A stretch of 64,000 nt of DNA from the NCBI RefSeq assembly GCF_030994125.1, contig NZ_CP099917.1, positions 434,001 through 498,000 of the forward strand, given 5' to 3'. This stretch comes from Pseudoalteromonas xiamenensis (lineage in GTDB: Bacteria; Pseudomonadota; Gammaproteobacteria; Enterobacterales; Alteromonadaceae). Of this stretch, positions 5,067 through 28,292 are shown one piece after another (position 1 is the first letter of the stretch; every line of letters begins with the position of its first letter). A program made the position numbers and the translations under genes. The notes beneath the pieces are model-generated. The model did no database searches, was not told the DNA's origin, and worked only from the letters and a program-made list of their open reading frames with translations.

Positions 5067-5813
5067 TTAAACCATGTACATCGCACCATTTACATGCAAA
5101 GTTTCGCCTGAAACATAGCCTGCTGCATCAGAGGCCAAGTAAACCACTGCCGCTGCAATTTCACTTGGCTGACCTAAACGTCCTGCAGGCACGTTCGCGA
5201 GCGTTGCCGCTTTTTGTTCCTCAGTTAACTCATCTGTCATGTCAGTTTGGATAAAACCAGGAGCAATAACGTTAACTGTTATGCCACGTGATGCCACTTC
5301 GCGAGCTAGTGATTTAGAAAAACCAATTACACCCGCTTTAGCAGCAGCGTAGTTTGCTTGGCCGGCATTCCCCATTGTTCCAACAACGGAGCCGATATTA
5401 ATAATACGGCCATTTCTTTTCTTCATCATTGGGCGAAGTACAGCTTTTGACAAACGGTAAATTGAAGAAAGATTGGTAGTAATAATGTCATCCCATTCTT
5501 CATCTTTCATACGCATTAAAAGATTATCGCGCGTGATGCCCGCATTATTAACCAAGATATCTACGTCGCCTACTTCGGCTTTTACGGCTTCAAGTAATGA
5601 CTCAATAGACGCTGCTTCAGAAACGTTTAAAACGAAACCTTTTCCGTTATCACCAAGATATTCAGAAATTTTCGCTGCACCTGATTCACTTGTCGCAGTG
5701 CCTGCAACTATCGCGCCTTGCGCAACTAACGCTTGAGCAATTGCTTTACCAATACCACGACTCGCACCTGTTACTAGCGCGACTTTACCTTCTAAAGAAA
5801 ATAATTGATTCAT
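5067..5813 (-). CDS. fabG: 3-oxoacyl-[ACP] reductase
   Basis: NADPH-dependent short-chain dehydrogenase that performs the first reduction of each elongation cycle. ATG at 5813 (MNQLFSLEGK, 248 aa) is preferred over the GTG two codons upstream because AGAGAG lies 5 nt before it. Rossmann motif GASRGIG near residues 16-22, NNAG motif, catalytic S142, Y155 and K159. It lies 13 nt after fabD. Close to E. coli FabG along the whole length. Confidence 0.97.
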   Translation of the reverse strand: MNQLFSLEGKVALVTGASRGIGKAIAQALVAQGAIVAGTATSESGAAKISEYLGDNGKGFVLNVSEAASIESLLEAVKAEVGDVDILVNNAGITRDNLLMRMKDEEWDDIITTNLSSIYRLSKAVLRPMMKKRNGRIINIGSVVGTMGNAGQANYAAAKAGVIGFSKSLAREVASRGITVNVIAPGFIQTDMTDELTEEQKAATLANVPAGRLGQPSEIAAAVVYLASDAAGYVSGETLHVNGAMYMV

Positions 5814-5826
5814 TGTCACTCTCTAT

Positions 5827-6753
5827 TTATTTAGCCGCTACGATGGTGTCTGGGGTATTCACCGACTCACACGCAAGCGCTTTATCAATGCGTTTCACAA
5901 GACCTGAAATTACTTTGCCCGGACCAAATTCATATGACTGATTGATTCCTTGACTTGCAATTTGCTGAACAGTTTCAGTCCAGCGTACTGGGCTGTATAG
6001 TTGACGAATAAGTGCCTCTTTTATTGCAGCAGCATCCGTTTCGACTTTAACGTCAACGTTATTAATTACGTCAAACGCTGGTGTCTTGAACTCAATACTA
6101 GAAAATAATGCTGAGAGCTTTTCCGCTGCAGGCTTCATCAATTCACAATGAGAGGGCACGCTAACTGGCAATGGGAGTGCACGCTTAGCACCTGCTGCTT
6201 TACACGCTTCAGATGCACGCTCCACCGCATCTTTGTGACCAGCAATAACAACCTGGCCTGGAGAATTATAGTTAACAGGTGAAACAACTTGACCTGCAGC
6301 GCTCTCAGCGCATGCTTTCGCAATCGCTTCATCTTCAAGACCGATAATTGCTGCCATCGAGCCTGTACCAGCAGGAACCGCTTCTTGCATGAACTCACCA
6401 CGTTTTTCAACTAAACGGACAGCATCTTGCAATGAAAGCACGCCAGCACACACGAGTGCCGAATATTCACCTAAACTATGACCCGCCATAACAACATCCG
6501 CGTCAGCGTTGTGCTCGCGCCACGCACGATAAATGGCAACACTCGCTGTTAAAAGTGCTGGTTGTGTACGATGTGTTTGATTAAGTTCTGTTTCAGGACC
6601 TGTTAGCACTAGCGAAGTTAGGTCATATCCTAACGCGTCAGATGCTTCTTTAAAGGTTGTTTGAACAATTGAATTCGTTTCTAGAAGTTCAGCTAACATA
6701 CCCACAGCTTGTGAGCCCTGACCTGGAAACATGAGTGCGATTTTTTGTGACAT
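5827..6753 (-). CDS. fabD: Malonyl-CoA:ACP transacylase
   Basis: Loads malonyl groups onto ACP. 308 aa with the N-terminal PGQGSQ loop, active-site S93 in GHSLGEYSALV and catalytic H202 in SVPSHCELM. It directly follows plsX with a 46-nt gap that contains no gene. In most gammaproteobacteria fabH sits in this gap. Confidence 0.97.
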   Translation of the reverse strand: MSQKIALMFPGQGSQAVGMLAELLETNSIVQTTFKEASDALGYDLTSLVLTGPETELNQTHRTQPALLTASVAIYRAWREHNADADVVMAGHSLGEYSALVCAGVLSLQDAVRLVEKRGEFMQEAVPAGTGSMAAIIGLEDEAIAKACAESAAGQVVSPVNYNSPGQVVIAGHKDAVERASEACKAAGAKRALPLPVSVPSHCELMKPAAEKLSALFSSIEFKTPAFDVINNVDVKVETDAAAIKEALIRQLYSPVRWTETVQQIASQGINQSYEFGPGKVISGLVKRIDKALACESVNTPDTIVAAK

Positions 6754-21144: not shown

Positions 21145-21930
21145 ATGACCAATTTAGAAACCCCCTCTAATGACTTTGAGGTTTCTGTTTTAATCCCGGC
21201 AAAGAATGAAGCCGAAAATATCCCTTCTCTCGTTACCGAAATCCACCAAAGTTTGCATCTTTACGTTACCTTCGAAGTGGTTCTGGTTAATGACGGTAGT
21301 ACCGATGAAACAGCACGAGTATTTACTGAAACTTGCGAGTCTTTGAACGTACCAGCTCAATTGATTTCAACTGAGCATAGTGTAGGTCAGTCTACCGCGT
21401 TGTATATTGCAGGCCATAATGCGAGAGCAAAATGGCTCGTGACAATCGATGGTGATGGCCAAAATGACCCCGCAGATATTCCAAATATGGTGTCTGAAGC
21501 AAATTCACTTCAGGGTAGTACGGATTTCTGTATCGCGGGGTATCGCCATAAACGAAAAGATACATCATGGAAACGTTTTCAATCACGAATCGCAAACCGA
21601 GTTCGAAATTGGTTTTTGAATGACGGCGTTCCAGACACAGGCTGTGGACTCAAACTTATCCCTAAGTCAACATGGGTGAAACTTCCCTACTTCAATCACA
21701 TGCACCGTTATTTGCCTGCATTAATTAAACGTATTGGCGGTGATATTCGCGTCGTTCCTGTCGCACATCGAGACCGCACTGCGGGTGTTTCGAAATATAC
21801 TGCTTGGAACCGCGTTTGGGTTGGTATTGTTGATATGTTTGCTGTTAAATGGCTCATAGCGAGAACCAAACACCCCGTTATAAAACAACATACTCATATC
21901 AATGCAGAGCAAAAGAATAATGCTGCTTAA
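21145..21930 (+). CDS. GT2 polyprenyl-phosphate glycosyltransferase (DPM1/ArnC/RgtE-like)
   Basis: 261-aa cytoplasmic-face transferase predicted to move a sugar from a nucleotide donor to undecaprenyl phosphate. GT-A features: SVLIPAKNEAENIPSL at the N-terminus, VLVNDGSTDET, and the metal motif TIDGDGQNDPADI near residue 110. The DPM1-type QSRIANRVRNWFL, DTGCGLKLI and HRDRTAGVSKY segments follow. No strong C-terminal membrane pair, unlike ArnC, so it is closer to soluble DPM1-like enzymes. It overlaps the next gene by 29 nt and opens the four-gene cassette. The sugar is not readable from the sequence; the epimerase downstream suggests galacturonate. Confidence 0.88.
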   Translation: MTNLETPSNDFEVSVLIPAKNEAENIPSLVTEIHQSLHLYVTFEVVLVNDGSTDETARVFTETCESLNVPAQLISTEHSVGQSTALYIAGHNARAKWLVTIDGDGQNDPADIPNMVSEANSLQGSTDFCIAGYRHKRKDTSWKRFQSRIANRVRNWFLNDGVPDTGCGLKLIPKSTWVKLPYFNHMHRYLPALIKRIGGDIRVVPVAHRDRTAGVSKYTAWNRVWVGIVDMFAVKWLIARTKHPVIKQHTHINAEQKNNAA

Positions 21931-22593
21931 AAGTTTTGTCTTTGGAATTGCAATAATCAGTATTATTGCTCTTCTTCAGCTTGGTATGATTGGTAACGTT
22001 GATCTGCATGAAAAACTGCTTGTCCTTCAAGCAAAAGCTGGCATTTGGGGTTGGCCAATTTTTTGCGTTGTTTGTGTTGTCTTTACGTCAATAGGTGGAG
22101 CGAGACAAATTGTCGCGCTTGCTTGTGGAGCGTTGGTTGGCGGTGTATCTGGCGCCTTCTTCTCCACGGCACTTACAACACTTGGCGCACTTTTGACCAT
22201 TCTGTTTATCCGATTTTTCGGGGGGAATGGTTTATCAAAAAATACCAACGAAAAATCTGGTTTCTTTCTGAATTACTAAAAAATCATACTTGGGCGTGGA
22301 TTTGCGCAATTAGACTACTTCCTGTTGGTTCAAATCTACTAACAAACATTGCTGCAGCTGTTAGCTTTTTGCCCCTGCCGAGTGTTCTCATTGGCAGCTT
22401 TGTCGGTTATCTGCCACAAATGTTTTTGTTTAGTTTCATCGGTGCAGGCGTTGCACAAGAAGATACCACCAAACTTTGGTTGAGTATTGTTTTGTTTATC
22501 GTGTCTAGCCTGATGGGTAGCTACCTCTATAAACATGGTGTAAAGGACAAAATAATAGCGTTAAAACAACAGGATATGCCAAATGTTCAATAA
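21902..22593 (+). pseudogene. VTT-domain (TVP38/TMEM64, DedA-like) membrane protein, frameshifted
   Basis: Reads in two frames. The first (21902-22279) has the N-terminal membrane segment, then the family core FTSIGGARQIVALACGALVG. The second continues as GEWFIKKYQRKIWFLSELLK, IRLLPVGSNLLTNIAAA and GSFVGYLPQMFLFSFIG to 22593. They join at a run of six G (22220-22225): a seventh G gives RFFGGEWFIKK. The conserved G-R and R-L-P-V/G-N motifs are those of VTT proteins, some of which (DedA branch) flip polyprenyl phosphate. It overlaps the genes on both sides. If intact in the cell it is a candidate lipid-carrier flippase for this cassette. Confidence 0.82.
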
Positions 22594-24289
22594 AATATCT
22601 GAGGACACGTGGGTTAAACTTATTTTTGCTGCACTCGTTCTTGCGCTTATTGCCGGCCTTGGTCTTCGTTTTCCATGGCCTGCCGACGAGCCTCGTTTTG
22701 CGCAAATTGCTAGAGAAATGCTGATGTCAGGGCAATGGTTATTTCCGACGCGTGCTGGTGAGTTTTACCCAGATAAACCCCCCGTGTTCATGTGGTTAAT
22801 TTCAATCTCTTACTTAATTACACAACATTTCAAAATCGCTTTTTTACTACCGTCTGCACTTGCAGGCCTTGGTGTAGCCTACCTCGTTTACGACATTACT
22901 AAACGTCTTTATGATAAAAAAATCGCTATCACGGCCCTGCTGATACTGATCATCTGCCCACAATTCTTATTACAAGCAAAAGCCGCTCAAATCGATATGG
23001 TTTTGTGTTTCTTCACAACCATGGGTTGCTATGGATTGATTAGGCACTATATTCTAGGTCCAAGTAGCAAATGGCTTTATCTCGCGTTTATTGCCATGGC
23101 GATTGGTGTCATGACCAAAGGCGTTGGATTTTTACCAATGTTGATGCTTATTCCACTTGCGTTGTGGTTCAAAAATACCCCGACTCGAAAAAGCTGGAAA
23201 TGGCAGAATTGGTTAGCCGTTGTTCTCTTTTTTGTAACATTGGCTTGTTGGTTGGGACCGATGTTGTACCAAGTTAATGTGCTACAGACACCCGAACTCA
23301 TCGCGTATAAAAACAATATACTTTTTAAACAAACGGCTGAACGCTATGCGAACGCCTGGCATCACCAAGAGCCTTGGCACTATTTTATCTTAAAAGTCAT
23401 CCCGATGATGTGGTTTCCCGCGCTGGCGGTTATCGTATTCGCTTGGAAGGAATGTGTTACCTTATTCAAGTCGCAACCTATTTTCAAAGTCCTTATTACA
23501 TGGGTTGTACTTGTACTTATGTTTTTCTCAATTAGTACTGGTAAGCGTGGTGTGTATATTTTCCCTGCACTACCGATGTTTTCTATCGTCGCGGCCATTG
23601 TTTGGCACAAGATTGAAAGAGAAAATATTCGTCTCTGGATTAGACGCGTTTTATTTGGTTTTGCAGGTCTCGTTACCTTTTTGCTCTTTGCTATCGCGTT
23701 CGTAATCGTCTTTAAATCGCAACTTCTTGAAAAGAAACATGGCGACTACTTGCCATTATTAAACGATTTAGTTCCTTTTATCGCCATAATGGCTGCACTT
23801 CTCGTGTTGCTCTTAGTTAAACTTAGAAAGTCAGATGCATTTCAGGCACTCGCCAGCATTACACTGGTTGTTTGGCTTGCGGTTGGATTCGTCGTATGGC
23901 CTATCGCGGATAGTTACCGAACGCCTGACGTTATTATGGAAAAAGCCCAGACCATTATGCCAAATGACAGCGAACTCGGTTTAGTTCGATTCAAAGAACA
24001 GTTTTTAATGTTCGCAACAAAACCGATTACTCATTTCAGTTACCTTGCCGATGAAAAAACACAGTTTCAACGCGCGTGGCAATGGGTATTTGCAAAGCAG
24101 AATCGGTTTATTCTTGTATCTGATGAAGAACCTTGGTTTTGTTTCAATAAAAACAATGCGATAGAACTGGGTCAAGCACACCGAAGGACATGGTATTTAT
24201 TATCACACGATCAAATTGAATCGACTTGCGACACACCGGACACGATGAAGACCTATCAGTTTGTTCCAAATTCAGAAGTGGTATTTTAA
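22583..24289 (+). CDS. GT39/ArnT-like polyprenyl-phosphate-sugar transferase
   Basis: 568-aa integral membrane protein of the dolichyl-phosphate-mannose / ArnT superfamily. After the first membrane segment comes the acidic loop PWPADEPRFAQIAREML, with D35 and E36 at the place of the catalytic Asp of ArnT and PMTs. DKPPVFMWL and about eleven further hydrophobic segments follow, then a C-terminal periplasmic part from about residue 445. It should transfer the lipid-carried sugar to an acceptor on the periplasmic face; lipid A or core is the usual acceptor for this type. It overlaps both neighbours, ending in TAATG with the epimerase. Confidence 0.87.
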   Translation: MFNKISEDTWVKLIFAALVLALIAGLGLRFPWPADEPRFAQIAREMLMSGQWLFPTRAGEFYPDKPPVFMWLISISYLITQHFKIAFLLPSALAGLGVAYLVYDITKRLYDKKIAITALLILIICPQFLLQAKAAQIDMVLCFFTTMGCYGLIRHYILGPSSKWLYLAFIAMAIGVMTKGVGFLPMLMLIPLALWFKNTPTRKSWKWQNWLAVVLFFVTLACWLGPMLYQVNVLQTPELIAYKNNILFKQTAERYANAWHHQEPWHYFILKVIPMMWFPALAVIVFAWKECVTLFKSQPIFKVLITWVVLVLMFFSISTGKRGVYIFPALPMFSIVAAIVWHKIERENIRLWIRRVLFGFAGLVTFLLFAIAFVIVFKSQLLEKKHGDYLPLLNDLVPFIAIMAALLVLLLVKLRKSDAFQALASITLVVWLAVGFVVWPIADSYRTPDVIMEKAQTIMPNDSELGLVRFKEQFLMFATKPITHFSYLADEKTQFQRAWQWVFAKQNRFILVSDEEPWFCFNKNNAIELGQAHRRTWYLLSHDQIESTCDTPDTMKTYQFVPNSEVVF

Positions 24290-25278
24290 TGATGGCCAAT
24301 ATTTTAAATGATAAACCGATACTGGTTACTGGGGCTGCCGGATTCATCGGCTTCCATCTAGCAAAAGCATTACTTGATAAAGGCTGCACTGTTGTTGGCT
24401 TAGATAACCTAAACGCCTATTATAGCCCAGAGTTAAAAGATGCACGGCTCTCACTGTTAAGTGAATATCCCAACTTCACATTCAAAAAAATAGAGCTTAA
24501 TAGTCTGTCGGAGCTCCAAGCTCTTTTCGACACATATAAGTTCGACGTTGTCGTTCATCTAGCAGCACAAGCTGGCGTACGTTACTCTATTGATGCACCA
24601 ATGACATACTGTGACAGTAACCTTGTTGGAATGATGCATATACTTGAGTGCTGTCGCCATAATGCAATTAAGCACCTTCTTTTTGCTTCTTCCAGCTCGG
24701 TTTATGGCCTTTCGGATACTATGCCATTAACCGAAACGGCAAAGACAGATTCACCGGTATCTCTTTATGCAGCCACAAAAAAAGCAAATGAGGCCATGGC
24801 ATACAGCTATGCAAAATTGTATGGGCTACCAATGACCGGACTACGCTTTTTCACGGTATACGGGCCTTGGGGTCGCCCAGACATGGCGTTGTTCAAATTC
24901 GTAGAAAAGATGCGTAATCACCAGTCCATAGACGTGTACAATATGGGGCAAATGCGCCGTGACTTTACTTACATTGATGATGTTATCAATGCAATAGTTA
25001 GCATGATCCCTAATGTACCGGACCAAAAAGTACCCTATGAAATCTTCAACATAGGCTCTAACAATCCAAAGCAATTACTCGATTTTATTGAGGAAATAGA
25101 ACGTGCATTGGGTGTCAAAGCAGACAAGAACTTGTTACCAATGCAAGCGGGCGATGTACTCGACACGTGGGCGGATGTACAAAAACTTAAAAAACATGGA
25201 CATCCATTGCCAAACACACCGTTTGCCGACGGTATAAAAGCGTTTGTTGATTGGCATTTGGCATACTACGCCACATAA
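24289..25278 (+). CDS. UDP-glucuronate 4-epimerase
   Basis: Extended short-chain dehydrogenase that interconverts UDP-glucuronate and UDP-galacturonate. 329 aa from the ATG that overlaps the previous stop (the adjacent second ATG is an equal choice). It has the NAD motif GAAGFIGFHLA, the family-specific GLDNLNAYYSPELK, catalytic Ser in SSSSVYG, YxxxK in LYAATKKANEAMA, and GLRFFTVYGPWGRPDMALF and GQMRRDFTYIDD. These match the LpsL/WbnF/CapI-type uronate epimerases rather than plain GalE. It supplies the likely donor sugar for the two glycosyltransferases upstream. Confidence 0.93.
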   Translation: MMANILNDKPILVTGAAGFIGFHLAKALLDKGCTVVGLDNLNAYYSPELKDARLSLLSEYPNFTFKKIELNSLSELQALFDTYKFDVVVHLAAQAGVRYSIDAPMTYCDSNLVGMMHILECCRHNAIKHLLFASSSSVYGLSDTMPLTETAKTDSPVSLYAATKKANEAMAYSYAKLYGLPMTGLRFFTVYGPWGRPDMALFKFVEKMRNHQSIDVYNMGQMRRDFTYIDDVINAIVSMIPNVPDQKVPYEIFNIGSNNPKQLLDFIEEIERALGVKADKNLLPMQAGDVLDTWADVQKLKKHGHPLPNTPFADGIKAFVDWHLAYYAT

Positions 25279-25348: not shown

Positions 25349-28021
25349 TCACACGCCCATACAACGCTTTAACCTTGTAAGCTTTTCACGCTCAACAGGT
25401 AGCGGGCAACTGTTAATAAAGCCCTTCAAAATATCTTGGGTATTGATATCACTGCCCGAGAGTTTTTCTTCAAGCATCGCGATTTGTACTTTTACTCGCT
25501 CATCTTTCAGCATTTCAGGTGATTCAACATCACTTAAGATTTCAAGTCGAATGAGCAATTCATCTGAACTCAGTGAAGACACAATATTTTTCTTCCACTG
25601 CTCTGGTAATTGACCCTTTTCTAAGCCGTCAAAAAGCGCGTCTAGATCGGCTTGTCGTTTACCAGCTTGAACTGTCTCCAGCTTAGCAGCAAGCACCTGA
25701 CGAAGTTCATTTTGGTCATTTCTAAGTACTTTAGGAACGCTTAATGAATTTACTTGGTTCAAAATATCATTAATTTCTTTGAGGCCTTTTGCTTCTTCAG
25801 CGGCTTTATTCAATTGCTCTAATTCGCTGCGAAGTGAATCCAATAATAGACTTTGCTCTGCGCGTCTTTCTTTGATTTCTTCCTGACGTTTAGCGAAAAC
25901 CGCATCATTGACTGCTCTGAAAGCTTGCCACAAACGATGTTCATTCTTAGCTCCTGCGAAACCAATTAATTGCCATTGTTGCTGAAGATCTTTTAAATGC
26001 TCACAGGCCGCTGACACATCCTCATTTTCAAGTTCTTCGTTTGCACTCGCCAACAGCGCTTCTTTTTTCGCCGTGTTCGCTTCATAATGCGATTTTATCA
26101 TTAACCAAATCGCATCTTGGCCAGACTTAAACTGCTGTGAAAGCTTGAGATAGGTATCTTGGTCAACTTTACCAGCTTCTTTCCACTGCTGTTTTAATGA
26201 CTGAAGTCCACTTTCCAATGCTTTCAAATCTGAGTCAACCGCTGCGCTTTGTGCTAAAACCTCCAGTGCGTTTATAATGCTTAAGCGACTCTCTTCATTT
26301 TGCTTACGCTGTGCTTCTTGCTCTGCAAAATAACTTCTGCATGGCTCGAATGCTCGCTCTATCTGCTGCTCAAAACGTTCTGCCAATGCCTTGGTTTCGT
26401 CATTTAGAATTGGACCGCATTCATTCCATCGCAAGCGTAACGCTTTTACTTGCTTTGCACGTTGTGCCGGTTCAACCGTTGTTTGTTCAGCTAGTTGCGC
26501 TAACTCACTCAAGATAGACTCACGTTTTGGCTCTGTTGCATATTTTTGCCAATCTTGCAGATCTTGTAATTTTTCTGTGAGCTCTTCTTTTAGCGTATTA
26601 AGTGGTGTTTGGTGATAAGCGGTTAAACCTTCATACTCTGAAAGGAAACCTTTGAATACGCCAAAAGCAACATTAAAGCGGCCGTTTTCAATTAATCTCT
26701 TAGTATCAAATGCTTTTTTACGCGCAGTTTGCTGCTTGTCTCTTTGCTCATTAGATAATACTTCATGAGCTTGACTAAACGCTTGCACGATTGATTTAAA
26801 CGTTTTTTGCAAGCCTGTTTGAAATTCCCTTGGCACCGTTTTAATCGCGTCTTTTGCCGTACGGCATAATGCATCAAAATCAGCGAGTTGGGAATCTAAC
26901 TGCTCAACGTTAAGCGGAGGTTCCACTTTAGCTAACGCGTCTAAAGCCAACTTAGCCTGTTTCGCGTTTTGGGCTATTGTGGGTAAAGTAGCCAGCTTTT
27001 CTTTAAACACGATAAGCGCTTTCGTTTTCTCTTCGATACGTGGTTCTGAACGGTAATCACTTGAATCAATATCACCTTGAAGTGAAAGCATTTCCTTAGC
27101 CAAGGTATCCACTGCGTTATCATCAAGATCTTGCAAAATGGCATTCATACGTTGCTTTAACTCTTCAAAGCGAGCATTTACGTTTAATTCAAACTCTGCT
27201 TTAGCCTGTTGAGCTTTGATTCTCGCTTGTTCGACATCAAATACTTCGCGTAGCCGCGCTAAATGACGCACTGTTTTTTCAGTAATCGACGCATATTTTG
27301 TAGCAAGTTCTTCTTGTTGAACTTCCGATAACCATTGCATCTCGACTGCAGACCACTGCGCAACAAGCGAATCGAATTCCTCATTCACTGACGCCCAGTC
27401 GTTCTTTTCACGAAGATGGTTGAGTTTCGCTAAGACCAACTTAGTCTCTTGTTGAACCCTTTCCGGCATTTCCTCTGCTAATTTGAGTTCAGATAAACGT
27501 GACTCAATTTTCGTCTTAACTGTACCTTTAGCATGCTTTAAAGCACTTTTTAAAAGTTGGTGTTGCTCAATTAATTGAAGTAAGTCATTTTGAAGCGCTT
27601 CTTCACTTTCTTTGAACGCTTTTTCGATAAGCGAGCTATCACTAAGACGTTTCAGCAACTTTAGACGTAACGTGTTGTCGTTGTCTGTCAATGCGAGCTT
27701 TTCCAATAACTTATTCGGTGCGTGCTTTTCGATGTATTCTTCACGAAGCAGCGTATCTAAATTGTCGTTTATGACCGCGGTAGCAATTTGTTGCTCAGCT
27801 ACGTCTTTTAGTGCCTGGTCTTGTTTGAACGCGTGCCACCAAAGGCCTAAGCTATTTAACTTAGCAAGTGCTTGGCGACGAATTTCAGGCGCGGTATCTT
27901 CTTTTGCCATTGTCGTTAAAATAGCGGAGTCTTTTTCAACGTTGAGCTTACTTAAAGCTTCTACACGTACCTGAAGCTTCGGATGTTTCCATTTTGGTGT
28001 AAATAAATGTTTAAAGATCAT
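25349..28021 (-). CDS. Large DUF349 repeat protein
   Basis: 890-aa mostly helical, highly charged cytoplasmic protein. ATG at 28021 (MIFKHLFTPKWKHPKLQVR) is preferred over a longer frame that would run through yeaC. The first 120 residues look like HEAT-type short repeats (DKVRVEAL-like: LQVRVEALSKL, PEIRRQALAKL). The rest contains several DUF349 units of about 75 residues, recognisable by repeated W-x2-x-G-x-l and L-x-x-R-W/F signatures such as ALRLRWNECGPI, LKQQWKEAGKVD and LQQQWQLIGFAG. DUF349 proteins are widespread in gammaproteobacteria without a settled role. It overlaps yeaC by 11 nt and is expressed with it and the zinc-ribbon gene. Confidence 0.85.
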   Translation of the reverse strand: MIFKHLFTPKWKHPKLQVRVEALSKLNVEKDSAILTTMAKEDTAPEIRRQALAKLNSLGLWWHAFKQDQALKDVAEQQIATAVINDNLDTLLREEYIEKHAPNKLLEKLALTDNDNTLRLKLLKRLSDSSLIEKAFKESEEALQNDLLQLIEQHQLLKSALKHAKGTVKTKIESRLSELKLAEEMPERVQQETKLVLAKLNHLREKNDWASVNEEFDSLVAQWSAVEMQWLSEVQQEELATKYASITEKTVRHLARLREVFDVEQARIKAQQAKAEFELNVNARFEELKQRMNAILQDLDDNAVDTLAKEMLSLQGDIDSSDYRSEPRIEEKTKALIVFKEKLATLPTIAQNAKQAKLALDALAKVEPPLNVEQLDSQLADFDALCRTAKDAIKTVPREFQTGLQKTFKSIVQAFSQAHEVLSNEQRDKQQTARKKAFDTKRLIENGRFNVAFGVFKGFLSEYEGLTAYHQTPLNTLKEELTEKLQDLQDWQKYATEPKRESILSELAQLAEQTTVEPAQRAKQVKALRLRWNECGPILNDETKALAERFEQQIERAFEPCRSYFAEQEAQRKQNEESRLSIINALEVLAQSAAVDSDLKALESGLQSLKQQWKEAGKVDQDTYLKLSQQFKSGQDAIWLMIKSHYEANTAKKEALLASANEELENEDVSAACEHLKDLQQQWQLIGFAGAKNEHRLWQAFRAVNDAVFAKRQEEIKERRAEQSLLLDSLRSELEQLNKAAEEAKGLKEINDILNQVNSLSVPKVLRNDQNELRQVLAAKLETVQAGKRQADLDALFDGLEKGQLPEQWKKNIVSSLSSDELLIRLEILSDVESPEMLKDERVKVQIAMLEEKLSGSDINTQDILKGFINSCPLPVEREKLTRLKRCMGV

Positions 28022-28292
28022 TTTCACTAAACCTAGCGATTTCGCTGTCTTGACTGAATTCTTTTTGTAATTCGCGCTTTGATTTTTGAACCATTTCACC
28101 ATTTTCATTAATGGTAAATTGTTCATTACTTTTCGCGATCTTAGCTTGATAAAGCATGACTAACTGGACTGTCTGTTCTTTTTGCGCTTCAGAAAGAACT
28201 GTGCCATCTGGCCACTTACCCGTCGCAGCACCATACTGCAACCGTTCAAATATTTCTGGGGTTATACTTTTAACTAGACTATCAACATTCAT
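28011..28292 (-). CDS. yeaC: YeaC family protein (DUF1315)
   Basis: 93-residue DUF1315 protein of unknown function. The signature is FERLQYGAATGKWPDGTVLS followed by a Q-x-x-x-Q-L-V-M-L-Y-Q-A-K helix. It sits between the zinc-ribbon gene (1 nt gap) and the DUF349 gene (overlap). Confidence 0.85.
   Translation of the reverse strand: MNVDSLVKSITPEIFERLQYGAATGKWPDGTVLSEAQKEQTVQLVMLYQAKIAKSNEQFTINENGEMVQKSKRELQKEFSQDSEIARFSENDL

Follow-up and report, generated by a model that had tools for sequence, protein, structure and literature searches.

In Xanthomonas, three consecutive genes (PXO_RS22260-22265-22270) encode an epimerase, a short ArnC-like glycosyltransferase of family GT2 and a LAB_N-like protein, the sugar involved being left open, and a cluster of eptA-lpxE-arnT lies beside the regulator pair raxRH (PMC8306577). 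LAB_N has been grouped with the PQ-loop proteins, as has MPDU1, which is needed for the use of dolichol-phosphate sugars (PMC3281891), and the PQ-loop protein Any1 scrambles lipids (PMC11893163). Among the DedA proteins, members of COG0586 are undecaprenyl phosphate (Und-P) flippases (PMC12826051, PMC10127716); members of COG0398 are bacterial kin of the scramblases TMEM41B and VMP1 and are regarded as unlikely Und-P flippases (PMC10127716). Here we describe a cassette in a 64,000-nucleotide stretch of the Pseudoalteromonas xiamenensis genome (contig NZ_CP099917.1, positions 434,001 to 498,000; hereafter the window), in which four same-direction genes with an overlap of a few bases at each junction (window 21145-25278) encode a GT2 enzyme, a membrane protein with a VTT domain, a GT39 transferase and an epimerase. 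The original prediction, made from the letters of the window, had described these overlapping rightward genes; its coordinates and order are correct and agree with the Pfam matches, the VTT gene having a broken reading frame.

On balance, though by a small degree, we favour reading the cassette as a lipid-linked galacturonate pathway for the cell envelope, in which we infer the sugar, the acceptor, the direction of transport and the substrate of the VTT protein from sequence comparison. A UDP-glucose dehydrogenase encoded elsewhere would supply UDP-glucuronate, which the epimerase would convert to UDP-galacturonate; GT2 would load the sugar acid onto polyprenyl phosphate on the side of the cytoplasm; the VTT protein, which is of the YdjX/TVP38/TMEM41B kind, would let the polyprenyl-phosphate sugar cross the membrane, and GT39, acting in the periplasm, would hand the sugar on, with lipid A as the most likely acceptor.

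The GT2-VTT-GT39 triad in other genomes

A collection of species genomes contained 195 relatives of the window's GT39, and the best 80 of these were fetched as loci with flanks of up to 6 kb on each side, in which neighbours were counted with custom profiles; being chosen by GT39, this set is biased towards VTT cassettes. The VTT gene lies directly before GT39 in all 80 loci and GT2 adjoins VTT in 79, the remaining locus ending at a contig end, so the order is not a chance arrangement and the triad is a widespread unit. A GT39 tree was built from 73 rows, comprising 48 of the 80 loci, 23 of the 46 rows of sample 1 (see below), the window and Escherichia coli ArnT; the rest of the 80 were omitted by number, and sample 1 was reduced by 10 short matches and 13 rows without a GT39 above 55 bits. 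The window's GT39 falls in a starred clade of nine rows with Massilia, Noviherbaspirillum, Hydrogenophaga and two further metagenome-assembled genomes (MAGs), and an epimerase follows GT39 in six of the eight other members. Within the window's own genus such a GT39 occurs in 2 of 108 genomes, its own included. The other congener (G769, locus L244, 6645-9901) carries the triad with a single-frame VTT; its GT39 is 42-43% identical to that of the window and the window's flanks are absent, so the two triads look like separate gains.

VTT and LAB_N proteins exchange beside GT2

The gene adjoining GT2 was recorded in two evenly drawn samples of genomes. In sample 1, GT2 was matched in 48 of 276 genomes of the class, own included; 45 of the 47 others were read (all but G085 and G321) and, with G049, gave 46 loci. 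In sample 2, GT2 was matched in 110 of 397 genomes of the phylum, which left 102 new ones after removal of the own genome and seven already in sample 1; 80 of the 102 were examined, giving 88 GT2 places. Sample 2 omits three LAB_N matches below cut-off (G549, G364, G455), and its VTT count, from 15 rows picked by eye as lying on the GT2 contig among the matches listed, is an undercount. The slot beside GT2 held LAB_N (PF07578) in 29 loci of sample 1, VTT in 9, both in none and neither in 8; in sample 2 it held LAB_N at 45 places, VTT at 14 at least (from the matches listed), both at none and neither at 29. Sixteen of these last 29 were read: one has VTT in the slot (L211), one VTT behind GT39 (L222), one LAB_N nearby on the other strand (L212) and one LAB_N on the far side of GT39 (G511, L224). 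Among the matches listed, LAB_N above cut-off was absent from every genome with VTT in the slot in both samples, G192 and G549 having one weak match each below cut-off, and the window's own genome (G000) has no PF07578 match. On the 73-row GT39 tree the VTT label needs four changes, three of them forced by well supported branches. In a genome of the window's own order (G049), LAB_N stands between GT2 and a GT39 41% identical to that of the window. Members of the VTT and LAB_N families are thus alternative occupants of one position, between a GT2 and a GT39 of the same kinds.

Two further arrangements were seen among these loci. Two open frames (G325:C7:25872-26441 and G385:C1:220701-221270) have two LAB_N matches each, a doubled LAB_N reminiscent of the two-repeat PQ-loop proteins. 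L121 and L133 have GT2 directly beside a GT39 belonging to this subfamily, VTT and LAB_N both being absent from the adjoining positions; the genome of L133 (G302) has LAB_N on another contig.

The plain reading of the exchange is that both slot proteins let a polyprenyl-phosphate sugar cross the membrane, and the VTT protein therefore probably carries out the transbilayer step for polyprenyl-phosphate-galacturonate. A broader proposal, which we offer tentatively and rate slightly below even, is that VTT proteins of the YdjX/TVP38 type (COG0398), or this branch of them, are polyprenyl-phosphate-monosaccharide translocases that LAB_N-type PQ-loop proteins can replace, and vice versa. The VTT protein had originally been cast as a flippase step replacing ArnE/ArnF. 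The exchange with LAB_N upholds its place in a translocase slot; the family replaced is LAB_N, not ArnE/ArnF, and export is the presumed direction. A BLASTP comparison of ArnE and ArnF with the cassette gave chance-level matches only.

The cassette in the window and its broken VTT frame

The features of the cassette are given in Table 1.

Table 1. Genes of the cassette, with positions in the window
Feature	Position	Strand	Domain evidence
GT2 polyprenyl-phosphate-sugar synthase, ArnC/DPM1-like, 261 aa	21145..21930	+	Pfam PF00535 (Glycos_transf_2) E 6.5e-20
VTT gene, piece 1, stop-terminated	21920..22279	+	VTT_dom E 0.0064 (below cut-off)
VTT gene, piece 2, different frame	22225..22593	+	Pfam VTT_dom E 1.6e-8
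GT39/ArnT-like periplasmic transferase, 568 aa	22583..24289	+	Pfam PMT 2.1e-18, PMT_2 9.4e-18
NAD-dependent epimerase, UDP-glucuronate 4-epimerase-like, 329 aa	24289..25278	+	Pfam Epimerase E 1.2e-59

The first VTT frame ends at its stop, and a different frame encodes the remainder of the domain. On a profile of 226 positions the two pieces match 6-117 and 108-223 and together span it, so no VTT sequence is missing. This is the only break, the frames of GT2, GT39 and the epimerase being intact, and it lies at a short one-base run. Such runs are a common site of sequencing errors. The VTT gene is in a single frame in 78 of the 80 relatives; the exceptions are L012, at a contig end, and L032 from Shewanella sp. 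HN-41 (5231-5894), a second broken cassette VTT with its break elsewhere in the domain. As a small check on whether the assembly is rich in frameshifts, two further pairs of frames that touch each other in the window were inspected; each pair turned out to be two distinct genes, which gave no sign of general frame errors.

Loss of the export step in a pathway of this kind would be expected to trap carrier lipid; a list of E. coli genes whose loss does so includes arnE, arnF and arnT (PMC12826051). A GT2 working alongside a broken VTT would charge carrier lipid that then has no further use. Given this expected trapping, four readings of the break are considered, between which the data do not decide: an error of sequencing, programmed slippage, a recent loss, or a defect that another protein covers. 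The last steps of the pathway may fail in this strain unless the break is an error, a slip or covered. The explanation that competes most strongly is that the cassette is decaying here, VTT being a pseudogene and the pathway not running. Besides the frameshift itself, the second broken VTT in L032 suggests that such losses occur, unless it too is an error, and the cassette is rare in the genus. Set against this are the single break at a one-base run, the absence of any lost sequence and the three intact partner genes, and we regard decay as a serious possibility, somewhat short of an even chance.

The GT39 transferase and its acceptor

GT39 matches the solved ArnT of Cupriavidus metallidurans (ArnT_Cm, 5ezm) at E 8e-16 and is 27.5% identical to E. 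coli ArnT over 371 aa; its score against the NCBIfam ArnT equivalog model is below cut-off (99.8 versus 567 bits). The functional residues described for C. metallidurans ArnT are D55/R58, E84, K85, D158/K203, R270 and Y345 (PMC8306577). Aligned through E. coli ArnT, the corresponding positions in the window's GT39 are D35/R38, D64, K65, D138/K179, R254 and Y325, and its D35-E36 also falls on functional positions of ArnT. Asp replaces Glu-84 of ArnT in all 49 aligned GT39 rows, a conservative exchange at one of eight functional residues. In the C-terminal part, C520 and C549 are invariant in all 49 rows and perhaps form a disulfide. In Marinobacter and a Halomonas MAG (L046, L059, L064, L069, L071 and L075, at about 700-1900), the regulator-kinase pair and the triad are preceded by another, distantly related GT39 (26-28%), which itself has a GT2 before it.

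Among the 80 relatives, a response regulator and histidine kinase lie near the triad in 29 loci, an EptA-like lipid A phosphoethanolamine transferase in 17 (11 named or MAG taxa) and a PAP2 protein in 9; at least one of the three is present in 35. For two representative regulators of the 29 loci the best model was PmrA at about 210 bits (cut-off 330), and for two representative kinases it was QseC (L006) and PmrB (L033), both below cut-off. In L006 and L009 the order is GT2, VTT, GT39, epimerase, PAP2 (other strand), regulator, kinase and EptA.

The lipid A neighbours, the Xanthomonas parallel and the retained ArnT residues make lipid A the best guess, and it is most likely the acceptor. The original prediction of a product on lipid A or another acceptor gains the lipid A context of the relatives, its sugar and acceptor still being deduced rather than observed. 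An acceptor in the lipopolysaccharide core, the O-antigen or a protein seems unlikely. GT39 enzymes use several acceptors, rhizobial core transferases among them, and the flanks of 45 of the 80 relatives show no lipid A gene; against another acceptor stand the EptA, PAP2 or PmrAB-like neighbours in the other 35 loci, with EptA alone in 17, and the conservation in GT39 of those positions to which, in ArnT, orientation of the lipid A phosphate is ascribed (PMC8306577).

Subfamily of the VTT protein

A profile of 78 cassette VTT proteins matches YdjX, which we take as representative of COG0398, with 69.5 bits (E 1.5e-22 among 10 sequences), and does not match YqjA or DedA, the two COG0586 members compared. 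COG0586 flippases are characterised by acidic residues in a first re-entrant tip and two basic residues in a second. In the first conserved stretch of the cassette VTT proteins P64-R65-Q66 carries no acidic residue, and in the second R135 is invariant but is accompanied by N142; this speaks against a COG0586 member, provided that the stretches are the tips, a placement based on the description in PMC10127716 rather than on a modelled structure. A search by sequence for solved relatives of the VTT protein gave none, the sole hit (E 0.024) being a crotonase. By sequence, the cassette VTT is of the YdjX/TVP38 kind and not of the Und-P-recycling kind. The precedent originally invoked, of DedA/VTT proteins that move Und-P, accordingly does not carry over: it belongs to the other subfamily, COG0586 (PMC10127716).

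This assignment bears on whether the VTT protein might return free polyprenyl phosphate to the cytoplasmic side, the job of UptA-type DedA proteins, with another protein exporting the loaded lipid. The pathway would indeed free its carrier on the outside, and COG0586 DedA proteins are Und-P flippases (PMC12826051, PMC10127716). The match to YdjX at 69 bits rather than to YqjA or DedA, together with P64-R65-Q66 lacking acidic residues and N142 beside the invariant R135, weakens the case for a UptA-type recycler; it is on grounds of such a kind that COG0398 proteins are held to be unlikely Und-P flippases (PMC10127716). The exchange partner LAB_N, moreover, belongs to the family of MPDU1. We consider carrier return improbable, at about one chance in four, and retain sugar-loaded polyprenyl phosphate as the probable cargo.

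GT2, the epimerase and the sugar donor

GT2 scores 80 bits against the NCBIfam ArnC model over residues 7-212 of 316 (cut-off 529), the first two thirds of ArnC, is 26% identical to E. coli ArnC over 209 aa and matches the solved ArnC 9hwj at E 9.7e-20. The best solved relative of the epimerase is 5u4q (E 6e-116), labelled dTDP-glucose 4,6-dehydratase and presumably the Klebsiella UDP-uronate epimerase, followed by 6zl6 (1e-48); the substrate roles of both are our assumption. None of 25 NCBIfam models listed, of 53 matching the epimerase, reached its cut-off. A close relative of the epimerase lies inside 20 of the 80 fetched loci, directly 3' of GT39 in 11 (a looser cut-off gave 24, four of which were only 24-27% relatives, so 20 was used).

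A UDP-glucose-dehydrogenase relative lies near the triad in 7 of the 80 loci. In L011 the dehydrogenase, GT2, VTT, GT39 and epimerase form one run, and in L021, L027, L028, L029 and L032 the dehydrogenase and epimerase are transcribed divergently from the triad; for the L027 dehydrogenase the UDP-glucose 6-dehydrogenase model gives 660 bits (cut-off 757). The window's own genome encodes a full-length UDP-glucose dehydrogenase at C1:1597872 (647 bits, same cut-off) and a UDP-ManNAc dehydrogenase at C1:1587084. The donor is likely UDP-galacturonate, as had been proposed, because dehydrogenase relatives accompany the triad and epimerase and the own genome has one; the accompanying idea of a pathway complete in one cassette fails, since that dehydrogenase is encoded elsewhere in the genome. 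Another uronic or a neutral sugar is the least probable of the alternatives: no listed epimerase model reached cut-off, and Francisella employs similar enzymes for galactosamine and glucose (PMC8306577), but dehydrogenase and epimerase adjoin the triad in relatives and the epimerase matches 5u4q closely, if its uronate role is as we assume.

Points against the pathway and the surroundings of the cassette

Several observations weigh against the galacturonate pathway as a whole. The slot is not obligatory, neither VTT nor LAB_N adjoining GT2 in 8 of 46 and 29 of 88 cases, and 13 of the 46 loci of sample 1 have no nearby GT39 above 55 bits. Fisher tests of the exchange (p 2e-5 in sample 1, 1e-5 in sample 2) treat related genomes as independent. 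A close epimerase is missing from 60 of the 80 fetched loci, a lipid A gene from the flanks of the 45 mentioned above, and GT39 is distant from E. coli ArnT. The window's cassette has no lipid A gene next to it, an EptA being present on contig C2 of the same genome, and its VTT gene is broken, at a step whose loss should trap the carrier lipid.

A recent insertion with its own base composition was also considered and rejected. In 1-kb windows the G+C content of the cassette (0.405-0.427) is inside the range of its surroundings (0.385-0.441), so composition does not mark it as foreign. The flank on the side of a DUF349 gene (this gene with the two small ones after it) is kept in 29 congener loci read; towards the cassette, the 14-17 kb inspected in 11 congeners yielded no orthologue of the window's neighbours. 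The DUF349 gene beside the cassette (25349-28126) is only 33-43% identical to those of 35 congeners, and for the small gene that follows it the identity across those 29 loci is 76-87%.

Comparison with known systems

If the broader proposal on COG0398 proteins is correct, bacteria place kin of two eukaryotic families, PQ-loop/MPDU1 and VTT/TMEM41B/VMP1, between DPM1-like and PMT-like enzymes, and those two families are linked to dolichol-sugar use and lipid scrambling. The VTT/LAB_N slot also offers a small bacterial model for membrane crossing by sugar-loaded polyprenyl phosphates; to our knowledge the crossing of dolichol-phosphate mannose is likewise unsettled. What COG0398 DedA proteins do in bacteria is unsettled (PMC10127716), and the cassette gives this family a testable job. 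The donor of the Xanthomonas ArnT-like enzyme is also open (PMC8306577), and the VTT/LAB_N slot makes both questions directly testable. Searches of one open-access library, with subscription journals and preprints largely outside its scope, turned up no description of a cassette with VTT or of the VTT/LAB_N exchange.

The E. coli arnBCADTEF operon resembles the cassette in having a GT2 (26% to ArnC) and a GT39 (27% to ArnT) with a translocase encoded alongside, but its translocase is of another family and the cassette lacks the genes for 4-amino-4-deoxy-L-arabinose (arnA, arnB and arnD, as judged within the cassette). The rhizobial RgtE/RgtD/RgtF/LpxE system, compared by description, likewise combines a polyprenyl-phosphate-galacturonate synthase with lipid A galacturonate transferases, whereas the available part of its account describes neither a VTT protein nor a translocase (PMC7663294). 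Two loci of the phylum sample (L232, L234) have PAP2, GT2 and LAB_N in a row, which resembles the adjacent locus numbers of rgtE, lpxE and rgtF in Oligotropha (PMC7663294), where we infer that the genes are the same. With the COG0398 DedA proteins YdjX, TVP38, TMEM41B and VMP1 the slot protein shares the VTT domain and the profile match to YdjX; here it is tied to a lipid-linked sugar pathway, on which the available text of PMC10127716 is silent ('glyco' occurs in it 0 times). The closest parallel is that of Xanthomonas, which has the same kinds of epimerase and GT2 and a presumed role in lipid A, but with LAB_N in place of VTT and with arnT unlinked; the LAB_N version is thus already noted there, its GT2 and LAB_N-like genes being linked to arnT in other species (PMC8306577).

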